This document shows, in pieces, positions 1,743 to 33,333 of a stretch of DNA of 33,350 nucleotides. Origin of the DNA: a virus. Made by a program: the position numbers and the translations under genes. Location: the IMG/VR virus record IMGVR_UViG_3300020463_000069, positions 1 through 33,350 of that record; one strand, given 5' to 3'. The notes beneath the pieces were generated by a model. The model was not told the DNA's origin, did not search any database, and saw only the letters and a list, made by a program, of their open reading frames with translations. Position 1 is the stretch's first letter. Each line of letters opens with the position of its first letter.

Positions 1743-1769
1743 CTCTGACTATATAGTTAGAGTTTTTTT
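1743..1769 (+). terminator. intrinsic terminator, plus strand
   Basis: Stem CTCTGACT (1743-1750), loop ATAT, stem AGTTAGAG (1755-1762, one G-U pair), then T7 (1763-1769). The flanks can add two more pairs. It would end plus-strand transcripts coming from the 1402 peptide gene, about 270 bases upstream, after reading antisense through the 1477-1659 gene. Confidence 0.6.
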
Positions 1770-1776
1770 ATTGCAA
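1748..1776 (-). promoter_or_regulatory. sigma70-like promoter, minus strand
   Basis: Minus-strand -35 TTGCAA (1771-1776), 17-base spacer, -10 TATAGT (1748-1753). Matches to consensus are 4/6 and 5/6. The start point would be near 1741, leaving an ~80-base structured leader before the ATG at 1659. The element occupies the same bases as the plus-strand terminator hairpin. Confidence 0.5.
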
Positions 1777-1815
1777 TTATTTATTTGTTTACGAGTTTCT
1801 TTACAATGTTTGCAA

Positions 1816-1971
1816 TTACATAGTTCTTTTTTTGAAAATTTCTTTTCGATTAATCCACAATCCTGTAAAAACTGAGTGAAACTTGTGTGTTGGATCATTT
1901 CTGCCATCTAATTCATACAATTCTTTTATGACTCTTACTCTTTCATTTTGCAAGTCTGTTTCTTGTGTCAT
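1816..1971 (-). CDS. small hypothetical protein, 51 aa
   Basis: Minus strand, ATG 1969-1971 to TAA 1816-1818. The ATG overlaps the TGA of the upstream minus-strand gene by four bases (ATGA), the coupling used all over this genome, which strongly supports it. Contents: MTQETDLQNERVRVIKELYE, then LDGRNDPTHKFHS, then VFTGLWINRKEIFKK. It is soluble-looking with a basic C-terminus. It probably works with the upstream membrane/coiled-coil protein. No family recognised. Confidence 0.6.
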   Translation of the reverse strand: MTQETDLQNERVRVIKELYELDGRNDPTHKFHSVFTGLWINRKEIFKKRTM

Positions 1972-2198
1972 CTTTTTGGCTTTAATTCTGCAACTGCAAT
2001 ATCTAGTGAATTAAGTCTACCGTAAATATCTCTCATGTCAGCATGCATATCATCCATTTTTTCGCATATCAATTCTACTTTAGTTAATAAACTAACAACA
2101 TCTTCTCGATTCTTTTTACCTCTATAACTAAGGCTTCCAGCAGATACAAAAATAGCAGTTAGTAATGCTCCTCCAGTAGCTGCAATGACTTCTATCAC
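1968..2198 (-). CDS. membrane-anchored coiled-coil protein, 76 aa (candidate lysis accessory)
   Basis: I start it at GTG 2198 (product MIEVIAATGGALL); a longer frame to a TTG at 2273 exists but would overlap the divergent gene by 48 bases and adds an implausible N-terminus. Residues 4-22 form one hydrophobic helix (VIAATGGALLTAIFVSAGS), followed by the basic stop-transfer SYRGKKNR, then a helical region with heptad-like Leu/Met/Ile spacing up to LKPKR. This layout, one N-terminal membrane helix plus a short coiled coil, is common in phage lysis accessory or holin-associated proteins. That role is inference from layout and from the two-helix membrane gene next door. Confidence 0.55.
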   Translation of the reverse strand: MIEVIAATGGALLTAIFVSAGSLSYRGKKNREDVVSLLTKVELICEKMDDMHADMRDIYGRLNSLDIAVAELKPKR

Positions 2199-2213
2199 TT
2201 TTATGTATATAAT
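2185..2213 (+). promoter_or_regulatory. sigma70-like promoter, plus strand
   Basis: Consensus -10 TATAAT (2208-2213), 17-base spacer, -35 ATGACT (2185-2190, 4/6). The start point falls near 2220, so the mRNA would be almost leaderless for ATG 2226 or have a ~20-base leader for ATG 2241. It likely drives 2226-4248 as one operon. Confidence 0.55.
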
Positions 2214-2225
2214 TCTATTAGTATT

Positions 2226-2669
2226 ATGCCAGAAAAAAGCATGAGTGAACAGAAACCTAAAGTTCAACCACAAATACCTAAAGAATTAGATGATGATAAA
2301 CCTGATTACCAAGAAAAAATAATGTTTTTGGTAAGCACCTCTGCTCAAGGAGCTATTCTTGCATGGTGTTTAATCGTCTTATCTCTTGGATATGTAAAAC
2401 TTCCTAATAAACTATTTGGTTTAGATATCCCAGATCAACCTAGAGTGGATAGCACTTTTGCAGCAGGTTTGCTAGGAAATATCTTGGCTGGGTGGGGTGT
2501 ATCTGTTGGTGCTGCAACAGGAGCAAAAAAGAAAAAGAAAGAAGGAGAGAACGGTACTATTGGTAACTCCAATGGCAGTGTTAGTACTATCATAATAAAA
2601 CAACCACTTGAGATCGTTGCGACAAAACCTGACGTAATCAAAGTAGATCCTAATTCATCAAAACCATGA
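2226..2669 (+). CDS. holin-like membrane protein, 147 aa
   Basis: ATG 2226 (alternative ATG 2241) to TGA 2667-2669. A hydrophilic N-terminus (about 32 residues, Lys/Pro/Asp-rich) is followed by two hydrophobic segments, about residues 35-57 (FLVSTSAQGAILAWCLIVLS) and 78-98 (FAAGLLGNILAGWGVSVGA). A Lys-5 run and a hydrophilic C-terminal tail come next. Two membrane helices with both ends charged fit a class II-like holin topology, but size and tail are larger than usual. Together with the divergent 1968-2198 gene it could form a lysis module; no endolysin gene is visible nearby. ATGA overlap with the next gene. Confidence 0.6.
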   Translation: MPEKSMSEQKPKVQPQIPKELDDDKPDYQEKIMFLVSTSAQGAILAWCLIVLSLGYVKLPNKLFGLDIPDQPRVDSTFAAGLLGNILAGWGVSVGAATGAKKKKKEGENGTIGNSNGSVSTIIIKQPLEIVATKPDVIKVDPNSSKP

Positions 2670-3154
2670 AAAAACTTTTTGTATTACTTGCACTAGCAAC
2701 ACCCTTGCCTCTTCTAGCTGACATCAGTCATTCAATCACTAGTTCAGTGTCACTTACTGTTGGTGGTGCTATGACCAGCAGCGATAGAATCGGATCTTCC
2801 TTTTCAATATCAGGCACAGGTGTTGATGTAACTGATGGCACTACTGCTGGAACATTATCTGCTGGAACAATAACAACAGGTGTATATTCGCCAGGTACTA
2901 TTGCAGCTACTCAAAACGCCACAAGTGGAGAATCTTTCAGTTTTTCTCAAAGCTATGTTCAAGCTGATGCTTTGGCTACAGGCGCACCGACTGTAGGAGA
3001 AGTTCCAAACTTTTCTGATACAACAAGTACTGCTGGAGGAACCGTAGGCAGCCTTGCTGGTAGTGTGACCTCTGCTGGAGTCGTAACAATAGCCCCGGGG
3101 GGAGCAAATACTGAAGCAGTTGGACAGGTAATTAGCACATTAATAACAAATTGA
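2666..3154 (+). CDS. exported Ser/Thr/Gly-rich protein, 162 aa
   Basis: ATG 2666 (overlapping the previous stop as ATGA) to TGA 3152-3154. Residues 1-18 are a signal peptide: basic MKK, a Leu-rich core, then PLLA before a predicted cut at Ala18/Asp19. There is no lipobox Cys. The mature part is low-complexity, rich in Ser, Thr, Gly and Ala without Lys, and has no Cys, resembling extended beta-rich surface or fibre-like proteins. An LTVGG motif (residues 30-34) recurs in the next gene. Exported proteins without a structural phage family are unusual; an envelope, surface or lysis-time role is possible but not shown. Confidence 0.7.
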   Translation: MKKLFVLLALATPLPLLADISHSITSSVSLTVGGAMTSSDRIGSSFSISGTGVDVTDGTTAGTLSAGTITTGVYSPGTIAATQNATSGESFSFSQSYVQADALATGAPTVGEVPNFSDTTSTAGGTVGSLAGSVTSAGVVTIAPGGANTEAVGQVISTLITN

Positions 3155-3160
3155 TTTTGT

Positions 3161-3592
3161 ATGATAAAAAAACTATTTTTATTACCTATCTTTATTGGCT
3201 ATCCTGTACACGCTATCCCTGTTGTTCCTAATTTTCAACAAGGAGTTCTTCAGCAACGAGTTGAAACCAAAAGTACAATAGTCGAAGATATAAAATCCTA
3301 TGACATACGCAATGGTTATGAACTGACTGTTGGTGGTACTAATGTTGAAAGCGTTACTGGAAATGTAGCTCCTAAAGGTTGGAGCAAAGTTAATACTTCT
3401 ATAAATGGTGTCGGTACAACTTATGTAAGCCCTAATTTAGATAATAAACCTGAGTTTCAAATCGTAGAACAAGGAGCTACCTTTCAGTATTTCGAATCGA
3501 TGGAAACTCCAGGGATTTCAAATTTTACCCACATAACTAGAGAAACAGTGGTGGAAAGTATTTCAGACAGCACGAGTACGTTTAGCCAATGA
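3161..3592 (+). CDS. exported protein, 143 aa
   Basis: ATG 3161 to TGA 3590-3592. Signal peptide residues 1-18 (MIKK, hydrophobic LFLLPIFIG core, ending PVHA before Ile19). The mature protein has LTVGG at 55-59, shared with the 2666 gene, and NTSING at 78-83, shared with the 3589 gene, suggesting that the three exported neighbours are related or co-assemble. No Cys and no membrane segment after the signal. ATGA overlap with the following gene. No family recognised. Confidence 0.7.
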   Translation: MIKKLFLLPIFIGYPVHAIPVVPNFQQGVLQQRVETKSTIVEDIKSYDIRNGYELTVGGTNVESVTGNVAPKGWSKVNTSINGVGTTYVSPNLDNKPEFQIVEQGATFQYFESMETPGISNFTHITRETVVESISDSTSTFSQ

Positions 3593-22953: not shown

Positions 22954-23650
22954 ACCGCAACCTCTTTCCAGTACATTTTACAAGCCATTCCCCATAAAAA
23001 TCTTTTGAACTTAGTCTACCTTCTATATGATGCAATATCATCTGTTGTGGCAATAAAAATATACCAACATGATTTAAACCTTGACTATTTATTGAAAATA
23101 ATAAACTATCACCATGCTCTAATTGTTCATCAGGTTTTAATTCTCTAAAACCTGTATCTTTAAAACATTTATCAAAATATGGATTAACACGAAAACTATC
23201 AGGATCGTTTGGTCTATCCCAATCTCTTAATTTTATGCCTACAGACTCATAATAATCTTTTACTAAAGTCCAACAATCATGAACTCCAAATGCATAATGT
23301 CTACCAATTAAAGGAGCTTTATAACCTGTAGGTTCAAACTCATGCCATTGACCTAATGCAACTGCATATATATACCAAATTTTTTTTGAATTTTCGCAAG
23401 CAGTTAAATCAGCAGAACTTGGAAATGGAGTTTGGGATGGATGTGAATGAAAAACACCAAATATTGTCCCTTGATCTTCTGCATTAGCATAATCTAATGG
23501 ATCAATAATAAAATGATCGTATGTATTAACTGCCATGTTTTTACATCGTATATATCTTTTTCTACCTTTTATAACAACTACTAAACCACAAGCTTCAGAT
23601 GGAAACATGTCCTCTGCGTGTTTTTGTGCTTCAATCTTCCAATTATTCAT
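22943..23650 (-). CDS. K: tail tip protein K: JAMM peptidase plus NlpC/P60 domain, 235 aa
   Basis: I start at ATG 23650 (MNNWKIEAQKHAEDM), the start lambda-type gpK needs; a longer frame up to 23731 overlaps L and adds 27 residues of antisense-like text. The Mov34/JAMM motif is complete: Glu19 (SEACGLV), His68-Ser-His70-Pro, Ser78/79 and Asp81. The second half is NlpC/P60: Cys126 (GVHDCWTL), His194 (LNHVGIF), and a third polar residue near His207/208. Such tail-tip enzymes cut the cell wall or prepare the tip at infection or assembly. Overlaps L by 8 bases and I by 11. Confidence 0.92.
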   Translation of the reverse strand: MNNWKIEAQKHAEDMFPSEACGLVVVIKGRKRYIRCKNMAVNTYDHFIIDPLDYANAEDQGTIFGVFHSHPSQTPFPSSADLTACENSKKIWYIYAVALGQWHEFEPTGYKAPLIGRHYAFGVHDCWTLVKDYYESVGIKLRDWDRPNDPDSFRVNPYFDKCFKDTGFRELKPDEQLEHGDSLLFSINSQGLNHVGIFLLPQQMILHHIEGRLSSKDFYGEWLVKCTGKRLRYVK

Positions 23651-24566
23651 GAAATGATCCGACACCAGGGAATTGTCTAGGTAGAACTTGTCTTGCAGGG
23701 ATCTTGAAATTAGGTAAATCCCATATCGCACTTAACTCAAACTCAACAACTTCTCTATTTTCAACAGACTTACGATCAACAATAAAAACTTGATCTCTAC
23801 TTGTAGCAGCCGTATTTGCAGTAGGATTAACGTAAGCATTATTAATAGTAATATTATTGCCCATATTATTTCCATGTACAGTGCAGTGATATTTTAATGA
23901 TGATGGTGCGTTTGTAGGTACAACAAAAACAGTTTTAGCACCTGATGATCCAGCAGTTCCACTAGCTGTTATACCATCACTATAAGCAGTATCGTTAGTT
24001 TGCCGAAATCCTATAGGATGGTTTGTATTTGTAGAATCACTTTGATCAAAAGTATAAGTTCCACCTTTTACTAAAGTAATTGCTGGTTTTGTTACACCAT
24101 CAAGAGCAAAAACATTACTTCCACCACTTTGTACAACTGTTACGTTATAAGTTTTTGTAACTGGGAAATTAACTGAATCTAGAAACATTGCTAAAGTTTC
24201 TATTCTGGTTAGCTTTGCATTTAACAAATCATTACCAGGTGTGATCTTATTTACCTCAATAAGTATTGTCGAAACTGTAGATAACAAATTACTAACTCTT
24301 AAAACTGGTCTAGCTATTGCATCACTTTGTCCACTTTTTTGATCAAATCCTTCTGCTTCAATAGGCATTGGAGTATAAGTTTTACTGTTAAAAACAATAG
24401 ACCCAGCCCCAGCAGCAGTCATACCAGAATGCCAACAATATGTAGTAGTAACACTATCTGGATTACCTATTGCGTAATGTGTTCCCTCAACAAGTTCAAG
24501 TTCATATAATTGAATTATTGCACTAGGGTTAGGTTTTTGTAATTCACTAATATAAGAATCAGTCAT
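23643..24566 (-). CDS. L: minor tail protein L with inserted cupredoxin-like domain, 307 aa
   Basis: ATG 24566 (ATGA with M) to TAA 23643-23645. Residues 1-137 are the gpL N-terminal fold (YISELQKPNPSAIIQLYELE, then GFDQKSGQSDAIARPVLRVSN, ending in FLDSVNFP). Residues 250-297 are the gpL middle (DRKSVENREVVEFELSAIWD, then LPNFKIPARQVLPRQF). Between them, 138-243 form a cupredoxin-like insert with ligands His183, Cys228, His231 and Met235 (HPIGF; YHCTVHGNNMG). The chain then ends at PGVGSFHE, exactly where lambda gpL goes on with the Cys-rich [4Fe-4S] domain, which is absent; only Cys44 and Cys228 remain. See findings. Confidence 0.88.
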   Translation of the reverse strand: MTDSYISELQKPNPSAIIQLYELELVEGTHYAIGNPDSVTTTYCWHSGMTAAGAGSIVFNSKTYTPMPIEAEGFDQKSGQSDAIARPVLRVSNLLSTVSTILIEVNKITPGNDLLNAKLTRIETLAMFLDSVNFPVTKTYNVTVVQSGGSNVFALDGVTKPAITLVKGGTYTFDQSDSTNTNHPIGFRQTNDTAYSDGITASGTAGSSGAKTVFVVPTNAPSSLKYHCTVHGNNMGNNITINNAYVNPTANTAATSRDQVFIVDRKSVENREVVEFELSAIWDLPNFKIPARQVLPRQFPGVGSFHE

Positions 24567-30870: not shown

Positions 30871-33333
30871 TTAAGTAGCGAAACAAAATGCTCCAGCCTG
30901 ACGAATAGCGTAGTCTATGTCCTGGAGCGCAATTATCCTGACTGTACCAGCAGTTGCACCAGCGTATGGATCGACTGTTAGATCCAATCCAGACCACATA
31001 CCCACAATGAACTGACTAAAGTCACCGAAGATTGCATCGTTGTTTAGAAGTTGATTTGAAACAATAGCTTCATAACCATTAATTTGATTATTATCAAACA
31101 CAAACATACCTGTGTTTGTAGCTTTTTCTGTTGATTTCAAAGCACCTCTAGCAGAAGCATTAACAAGATACTTCATAGAACCACCCTCTGCATTTGCTAC
31201 TGCAACATCGGTTTCCATCCCAATATATTCTGGAAATGTCCCGAATGTTGTTAAGGACTGAGAGCCAATACCACTTGTATCTTTTAGACCTAATGGCTGG
31301 TTAGAAGAACCTGTTCCGTAGATAGCAGTACGATCTAGCTCAAGAGCAATCTTCTTAGCAATGTCATCTCTAACAAATGCTTCGATGTCTATAGAAGACT
31401 GAAGAAGAGTTTTTCTTGTAAAATCAGTAAAAGCACCAACCGTCTTTGGTGTCATTGAAATCTGCGTAAAGCTCTGCTGACCCTCTGTAGGCGCACCGCC
31501 CTCTCCTACCCAGTAAGCAGAAGTTGTACCGTCTTGCTTCGGAATGCTGATATTCCCTTCTAGCCCAGTAAGCATGGTCACCCCAGCTTGCATGATAGCC
31601 ATTTTATTTCTCAAAATTTCTATGAAAGAACCGCTGAGAAGCTCTGTGCTGACTAGATTTCCTCCATCAGCAGCAGTACCAACATTTAAATCCCTCTTAA
31701 GGACTTCGTTAGGAACTATTAAACCTTTAGCTGGTCTGCCATATCTAGAAGCAGCTTCGTCAGAAACTTCTCTTTCAAATGATGCAGCTTCTTGTGCAGC
31801 CCTATCGCTAGGATTTGCTAAAGCATTGATAGCTCTTAGGAAAGAATATCTTTTTGTTTCTTTCTTTTCTAAAAACTCTTTAGATTCTTTTGTTTCAATC
31901 ATGTCGGTAGAACGAATTGGAGTAGCTTTTTTATTTTTAACAAGATCTAAAATGGCTGATCTTGCTTCTGTAGCAGATTTATTACTCTTAATAAGAGATT
32001 CTGTTAAATCTTCTGCTCCGTATTCTGAGAACTCACGACAAGTTGTAGTGATTTCAGCAACACGAGCATTGTTCTCATCTAAAGCACGTTGTACTTCAGC
32101 TTGAACATCAATTTCTACTGACGGCTTCTGTTCCACCGCAGCTTCTTTAGTTGTTTCTTCCATAGATGGATTAGATTGTGCGGTGGTAACCGCTGAACGA
32201 TCCTCTTTTTGAGAGGAGTTAACATTAATGATAATGTCTTCTTCTTCTAAAGTAACACTTTCTGATGAAATATTCTCTACTAAAGATCTACCAAAGCCAA
32301 CGGAATTGTCTGCCGGGATAGTTGCCAAGCTAACTTCATGGGGTGTCCATTTAGTCGCCCTAAGTCCTGTGTCCGTTTCTTCCACTTCGTCCAGACTGTA
32401 TCCAAACGAGATTCCACGGAATATTCCGTCTTTAACGTCTTCTAAGACTTCTGTAGCAAATTTAGAGCGAGAGAAGCGGATTTTAGCGTAACCGCGCTTG
32501 TCGTTGTCCGAAATATACGCAGATTCCACTACCCCTAGAACGCGATTGGGATCATGGTTGAAGAGAAAAGGTGCTGCTCCATTTAATCTTTCTAGATTTG
32601 CACTTCCTCTTTCGTGGCTTAACACTTCGTCACCAAAAAATCTACGAACTGGAATTTCCGATGAAAACGGAAACTCAAATGTTCTTGCTTTTTTCTGATC
32701 AAAGTCAGTAACTTCTTTTCTTTGAAGCTTATCTTCCGCTGAAATTACTCTGATTGGAGAAATCTTAGTCAAAGTAGAAAACTTATGACCTACCTTTCTA
32801 TCAGTAGCTTCGCCATTCCTATAAAGAGTAATTAAGGCAGCAGGGTCATCTGCTGTTCCTGTGATCGTGAAAGAAGAGTCTGGTACATCAATAGAACCAT
32901 CTCTAACAATACGAGTAATTTTTCCTCGTGCTGTACCTCCGCTTGAAGACCAAGAAACAAAATCCCCTGTCTTCAATGCGTCAGGTGCTGCACGTTCTTC
33001 AGTCTGTTCAGACATAGTACGCTCCCTAGCTTTTTTGATTTGATTAGACTTGGTTCCAGACCAAGACTGCCCTGCGTCTCCGCCCCAAGCAGCCCAACTG
33101 ACCCTCCCATTGCTGGGATAGCCGTCTTCGCCCTTGCGGAAACCTTTGCCCGATTTGTCCGACTCGTGCCGAGCAAACCACGCATTCATAGTTATAACAG
33201 TATCTGGACTTAGCTGGTCACCGCTTAATATTTGTGTTGCTCTTGTTCTTGCATCATCTGTACCTCCATCTTCTCCATCTTTCTTCCATTCTCGATATCG
33301 TTTAGCTTCTACTCTCATTCCCTCCGTGGGCAT
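30871..33333 (-). CDS. capsid polyprotein: Tudor-like segment + S78 prohead protease + scaffold + HK97-fold major capsid, 820 aa or more
   Basis: Stop TAA 30871-30873; ATG at 33333, but the frame stays open to the right edge (codons for VDIDL precede this ATG), so the true start may lie outside. Residues 1-105: segment with ARTRATQILSGDQLSPDTV and GRVSWAAWGGDAGQSW, seen next to phage head proteases. 119-192: DUF2945/Tudor-like piece (GDFVSWSSSGGTARGKI, HKFSTL). 217-350: S78 protease with His260 (FNHD) and Ser309 (GISFGY). 350-510: charged, helical scaffold/delta-like region. 515-820: major capsid (SIPKQDGTTSAYWVGEG, LDRTAIYGTGSSNQPLG). Self-cleavage is expected. Confidence 0.88.
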   Translation of the reverse strand: MPTEGMRVEAKRYREWKKDGEDGGTDDARTRATQILSGDQLSPDTVITMNAWFARHESDKSGKGFRKGEDGYPSNGRVSWAAWGGDAGQSWSGTKSNQIKKARERTMSEQTEERAAPDALKTGDFVSWSSSGGTARGKITRIVRDGSIDVPDSSFTITGTADDPAALITLYRNGEATDRKVGHKFSTLTKISPIRVISAEDKLQRKEVTDFDQKKARTFEFPFSSEIPVRRFFGDEVLSHERGSANLERLNGAAPFLFNHDPNRVLGVVESAYISDNDKRGYAKIRFSRSKFATEVLEDVKDGIFRGISFGYSLDEVEETDTGLRATKWTPHEVSLATIPADNSVGFGRSLVENISSESVTLEEEDIIINVNSSQKEDRSAVTTAQSNPSMEETTKEAAVEQKPSVEIDVQAEVQRALDENNARVAEITTTCREFSEYGAEDLTESLIKSNKSATEARSAILDLVKNKKATPIRSTDMIETKESKEFLEKKETKRYSFLRAINALANPSDRAAQEAASFEREVSDEAASRYGRPAKGLIVPNEVLKRDLNVGTAADGGNLVSTELLSGSFIEILRNKMAIMQAGVTMLTGLEGNISIPKQDGTTSAYWVGEGGAPTEGQQSFTQISMTPKTVGAFTDFTRKTLLQSSIDIEAFVRDDIAKKIALELDRTAIYGTGSSNQPLGLKDTSGIGSQSLTTFGTFPEYIGMETDVAVANAEGGSMKYLVNASARGALKSTEKATNTGMFVFDNNQINGYEAIVSNQLLNNDAIFGDFSQFIVGMWSGLDLTVDPYAGATAGTVRIIALQDIDYAIRQAGAFCFAT

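Follow-up and report, generated by a model that had tools for sequence, protein, structure and literature searches.

This locus raises the question of whether a cupredoxin-like domain in the middle of a phage tail-tip protein has taken over the role of a lost iron–sulfur domain, or whether it is an accessory module that is gained, lost and exchanged independently of the protein that carries it. The gene lies in a 33,350-nucleotide stretch of viral DNA (IMG/VR record IMGVR_UViG_3300020463_000069), referred to here as the window. A preliminary description, made from the letters alone, placed the gene correctly and did not give its strand; it is read on the minus strand, from 24566 to 23643, the plus-strand reading being full of stops. 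The 307-aa protein is a homologue of lambda gpL. Pfam Phage_tail_L (PF05100) matches it in two stretches (E = 2e-20), the local gene order (tape measure–M–L–K–I–J) is that of lambda, and the full-length structural model (pLDDT 86.4) aligns with the HDI fold of lambda gpL (8iyk_L) with a Z score of 18.7 over 161 residues. The alignment pairs residues 1–290 of the model with residues 4–164 of gpL. The window protein differs from its lambda counterpart in having a cupredoxin-fold insert inside the HDI domain and no C-terminal Fe-S domain (Table 1). Elsewhere in the window, a single 820-aa open reading frame (30871–33333, minus strand) combines a prohead protease (Peptidase_S78) with a capsid protein (Phage_capsid), and a Hva1_TUDOR match precedes both.

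Table 1. Features of the gpL-type gene, in coordinates of the window
Feature	Position	Strand	Evidence
gpL-type tail-tip protein gene, 307 aa, with domain insert	23643..24566	minus	PF05100 E 2e-20 in two stretches; phrog_18 E 3e-32; lambda gpL 8iyk_L Z 18.7
gpL HDI domain, first part (residues 1-130)	24177..24566	minus	insert-free relatives 91-98% identical; structure match
Insert, residues 131-248; close relatives have a GES-type 3-residue loop instead	23823..24176	minus	junction alignment; blastn break at 23824/24177
Cupredoxin-fold core (predicted), residues about 137-244	23835..24158	minus	AlphaFold2 pLDDT 94; cupredoxins dominate Foldseek and VIA-align lists
His183, putative copper ligand	24018..24020	minus	100% in 77 phage domains; codon check
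Cys228, putative copper ligand	23883..23885	minus	100% in 77 phage domains; codon check
His231, putative copper ligand	23874..23876	minus	100% in 77 phage domains; codon check
Met235, putative axial copper ligand	23862..23864	minus	97% in 77 phage domains; codon check
gpL HDI domain, second part (residues 249-290)	23697..23822	minus	
Short C-terminal tail ARQVLPRQFPGVGSFHE and stop, at the place of the lambda gpL Fe-S domain	23643..23696	minus	insert-free relatives end alike; four-Cys block absent

The proposal that an inserted domain interrupts gpL held up: the insert breaks the HDI domain in frame, with junctions FLD/SVNFP on one side and NP/TANTAATSR on the other. Insert-free relatives read FLD-GES-TANTAATSR at this point, a clean in-frame difference of 348 nt, and IMG/VR contains insert-free gpLs of this type that are 192 aa long. 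The syntenic, insert-free relative L004 shares 91.4% identity with the window over 3,876 bp of one flank and 93.3% over 4,400 bp of the other; its alignment breaks at 23824/24177, and across about 8 kb at 91–93% identity just the insert is absent. Two further insert-free relatives, with records of 42.8 kb and 55.5 kb that are possibly incomplete, have no copy of the cupredoxin domain anywhere in these records. Phages of the window's group therefore exist without the domain. The insert is present in 11 of 95 non-redundant complete gpLs, always in one and the same loop. In gpLs of ten other records from marine phages, this loop is occupied by unrelated short inserts (about 20–30 aa) with LLENGS/LLLEDG-type repeats, and it thus looks like an insertion hotspot. 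Three gpL-type open reading frames of 541–548 aa have a long additional C-terminal stretch.

Structure prediction and fold comparison bore out the suspected cupredoxin fold, with a confident model and match lists that cupredoxins dominate. The AlphaFold2 model of the insert, built with 56 sequences as input (pLDDT 94.0, pTM 0.87), is a Greek-key beta-barrel of the cupredoxin type. The best match in the Foldseek and VIA-align lists (Z = 9.8, 106 residues aligned) is the N-terminal domain of the Hyphomicrobium nitrite reductase (2dv6), and two-domain laccases, CueO, AcoP and rusticyanin are also found; the cupredoxin matches of the full-length model cover residues 135–244. In the insert model, the first His lies ahead of a strand, the Cys at a strand end and the second His and the Met after it, which is the usual placement in cupredoxins. 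SO1698, annotated as an aspartic peptidase, is also among the structural matches, so the fold alone is no proof of copper. At the sequence level, the window's domain matched neither PF00127 nor PF13473; some members of its family gave weak, sub-threshold matches to the profiles of Copper-bind, plastocyanin and halocyanin. PDB sequence searches with the single domain and two profiles returned no meaningful copper-protein match, the top rows being noise such as SUMO-2. The domain thus resembles the type-1 copper cupredoxins (plastocyanin, amicyanin, rusticyanin and the 2dv6 N-terminal domain) in its predicted fold and its His-Cys-His-Met order, but differs from them in sitting in a virion protein, in its C-x2-H-x3-M loop and in the lack of a significant sequence match; its metal site is putative. 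The beta-sandwich proteins A0A481Z7Q7, A0A481Z6J5 and A0A481YXP1 of Pithovirus- or Marseillevirus-like giant viruses, found as BFVD matches, also resemble the domain model.

The candidate copper ligands stand where they were first read, with the spacing C-x2-H-x3-M. In 77 phage homologues, made non-redundant at 85%, the four columns rank second, fourth, fifth and ninth of 102 for conservation, which rules out a chance ligand set. All four residues are present in 109 of 109 non-redundant IMG/VR copies; because these were partly picked by motif patterns, isolates found by tblastn alone were also inspected. Full copies among these isolates keep the first His, as well as C-x2-H followed by a Met two to four residues on, and two seeming losses of the Met proved to be alignment shifts (CTAHGGM and CSNHPNM). 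Between C-x2-H and the Met, three residues intervene in the window's clade (x3) and two in the majority of copies from cyanophages and cells (x2); four (x4) occur once. The doubt voiced earlier about the His-to-Met spacing is therefore no serious objection: loop length varies while the ligands stay. It had also been reasoned that close relatives lacking the ligands would speak against the site; the closest relatives indeed lack the whole domain, yet nearly every copy that exists keeps its ligands. The fold does not force them, as one repeat (residues 575–675) of a giant SAR86 protein has lost the ligands and kept the sequence signature of the domain. Phage Syn1 has a partial, degenerate second copy (residues 781–856), and in another cyanophage protein (KJ019035, open reading frame 1750–3234) the match to a second copy falls into two parts, as though this copy had itself received an insert.

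The domain belongs to a widespread family. It matches tail PHROGs, a single tblastn query recovered 96 phage records that carry it (from phages of Synechococcus, Prochlorococcus, Pelagibacter and Methylophilales), and at least 590 stretches in IMG/VR were confirmed to contain it. Its carriers in phages include fibres, gp9-type connectors and baseplate proteins, and many cyanophage tail proteins share the domain in predicted structures. Cultured phages with the domain include the Synechococcus phages S-TIM5 and Bellamy. Besides the tail proteins of cyanophages, pelagiphages and methylophages, marine archaea and bacteria carry the family in surface proteins: it is found in SAR86 giant proteins with RTX or cadherin repeats and in gammaproteobacterial proline-rich proteins similar in type to those of Marine Group II archaea. 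In eleven proteins from these archaea and their relatives, which are lipoprotein-like with a collagen-like stalk, the domain is placed at the C terminus.

We also compared the insert with the gpL bodies that carry it. The gpL gene of L082 (3001–3966) is near-identical to those of L152 and L162, and the cupredoxin-insert alleles are strongly divergent, with many synonymous differences. Between L082 and L152, DNA identity is 93% on both sides of the insert and 67% inside it, where the changed codons comprise 34 synonymous and 31 non-synonymous ones; from these sequence comparisons, the cassette was probably exchanged between the two genes. The insert of the window is nearer to those of L086–L089 (68–69%, compared with 57–58% for the body) than to that of L002 (63%, compared with 82% for the body), so insert and body have separate histories. 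On the tree of gpL bodies, the presence and absence of the insert needs four changes. The gpL inserts fall into three groups on the domain tree, where branches with strong support require no more than one change, and all of them may have a single origin. A recent de novo insertion is unlikely: an insert-free gene shares 97% identity with the window's gpL body, whereas the window's insert is only 63–69% identical to other gpL inserts of its group. These alignments are better explained by exchange with a standing pool of alleles that bear the insert. The domain is thus present, absent or swapped, and occurs in unrelated tail proteins, as expected of an exchangeable tail decoration. Such gain, loss and swapping would be the pattern of an exposed contact cassette.

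Separate parts of this picture are already known, namely gpL, cupredoxins, exchangeable tail decorations and metals in tails. The Ig-like decoration domains of tailed phages are likewise optional, exchangeable beta-sandwich modules in various tail proteins, whereas the cupredoxin-type domain is of another fold family and has a strictly conserved metal-type site. The HxH iron-binding tail fibres (T4 gp37 and alterophage R22Y; PMC11705849) also place metal-site residues in an exposed tail protein, but with a different fold, metal and ligands, and T4 gp37 is backed by a crystal structure whereas the site in the window is predicted. We found no account of a cupredoxin or type-1-copper-like domain in phage tails in the open-licence literature, and judged against that literature the widespread presence of a type-1-copper-like module in phage tails appears to be new.

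The C-terminal domain of lambda gpL has four cysteines and carries a [4Fe-4S] cluster. The preliminary description recognized that this domain is missing here, and the analysis agrees: the match of the model to lambda gpL ends at gpL residue 164, there is no four-Cys region, and the protein has no cysteines other than Cys44 and Cys228. When we searched the gpK and gpI open reading frames by eye for a relocated Fe-S domain, we saw no four-Cys block of this kind. The description went on to propose that the cupredoxin had assumed the role of the lost cluster, one metal replacing another. In keeping with this, the two domains never occur together among the 95 gpLs: the insert is found in none of the 44 with the four-Cys domain and in 11 of the 51 without it (Fisher P = 0.0007, a test that ignores relatedness and so inflates the association). 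Shared ancestry can account for this pattern, and the other 40 of the 51 gpLs that lack the Fe-S domain manage without the insert as well, near-identical phages included, among them the relative that is 91–93% identical to the window over 8 kb. The insert is, moreover, placed in an HDI loop and not at the C terminus. Homologues of gpL without the Fe-S domain, and a C-terminally truncated gpL, were known before (PMC13243795). The insert-free, Fe-S-less relatives largely refute metal replacement, which we consider very improbable.

We instead interpret the insert as an accessory, exchangeable domain of predicted cupredoxin fold displayed from a loop of the gpL ring at the tail tip, a member of a large family, found in the tails of marine phages and in surface proteins of microbes, that keeps a complete His, Cys, His and Met set. 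Its fold and its nature as a swappable module are, taken by themselves, highly probable. An adhesion-type module fits the swapping between near-identical genes and the presence of the family on phage tails and microbial surface proteins, and there is no sign of an enzyme or of a part required for tail assembly. The domain would be exposed and would aid contact with the host surface, a role also suggested for the Ig-like domains that decorate tails. Because little free copper is available in the cytoplasm, where phages assemble, the putative site would either be filled at a later stage or hold another metal; it may take up copper once the virion has left the cell, and the metal would then stabilize or tune the domain. 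We give copper binding by the insert a slight preference over its absence. The full statement, of a dispensable, exchangeable and surface-exposed cupredoxin module with a type-1-copper-like site that binds metal and serves host-surface contact, is a serious candidate that falls a little short of being probable. The main doubt concerns the metal. Copper could be irrelevant, with a site that holds Zn or Cu(I), or merely stabilizes the fold, in a structural or adhesive decoration working like the Ig-like tail domains; presence, absence and swapping are typical of decorations, family members occur in many unrelated surface proteins, and copies poor in ligands exist in cells. However, the strict Cys-His-His-Met set with its single Cys and variable loop is the classic type-1 copper signature, and a purely structural site would be expected to drift, which leaves this alternative possible and tentative. 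By analogy with the Ferrojan horse, bound copper or its redox state might instead meet a copper receptor of the host or trigger infection; a copper or redox signal at infection was also among the ideas of the preliminary description. Iron-binding tail fibres have been proposed to do likewise for iron (PMC11705849), unrelated tail proteins retain the ligands, and swapping is consistent with arms-race exchange; yet cells bear the domain on their own surface proteins, which implies that the site has uses other than bait, and we regard such a role as unlikely. We are equally doubtful of the broader proposition that blue-copper sites are common on marine phage tails, that copper or its redox state is used in host recognition or as an infection trigger, and that the swappable cassettes are determinants of host range.

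The gpL of the window shows that a single loop of the gpL ring can accept a whole domain, and the natural pairs of phages with and without the domain, as well as those in which it has been swapped, make its role directly testable. Interest in the domain would be high if metal binding were proven. If the site binds copper, a widespread domain labelled only as 'virion structural protein' or 'tail fiber' would acquire a meaning, and many ocean phages would have virions that display copper proteins. Phage adsorption would then be tied to trace-metal chemistry, and phages would be added to the copper ligands of seawater.
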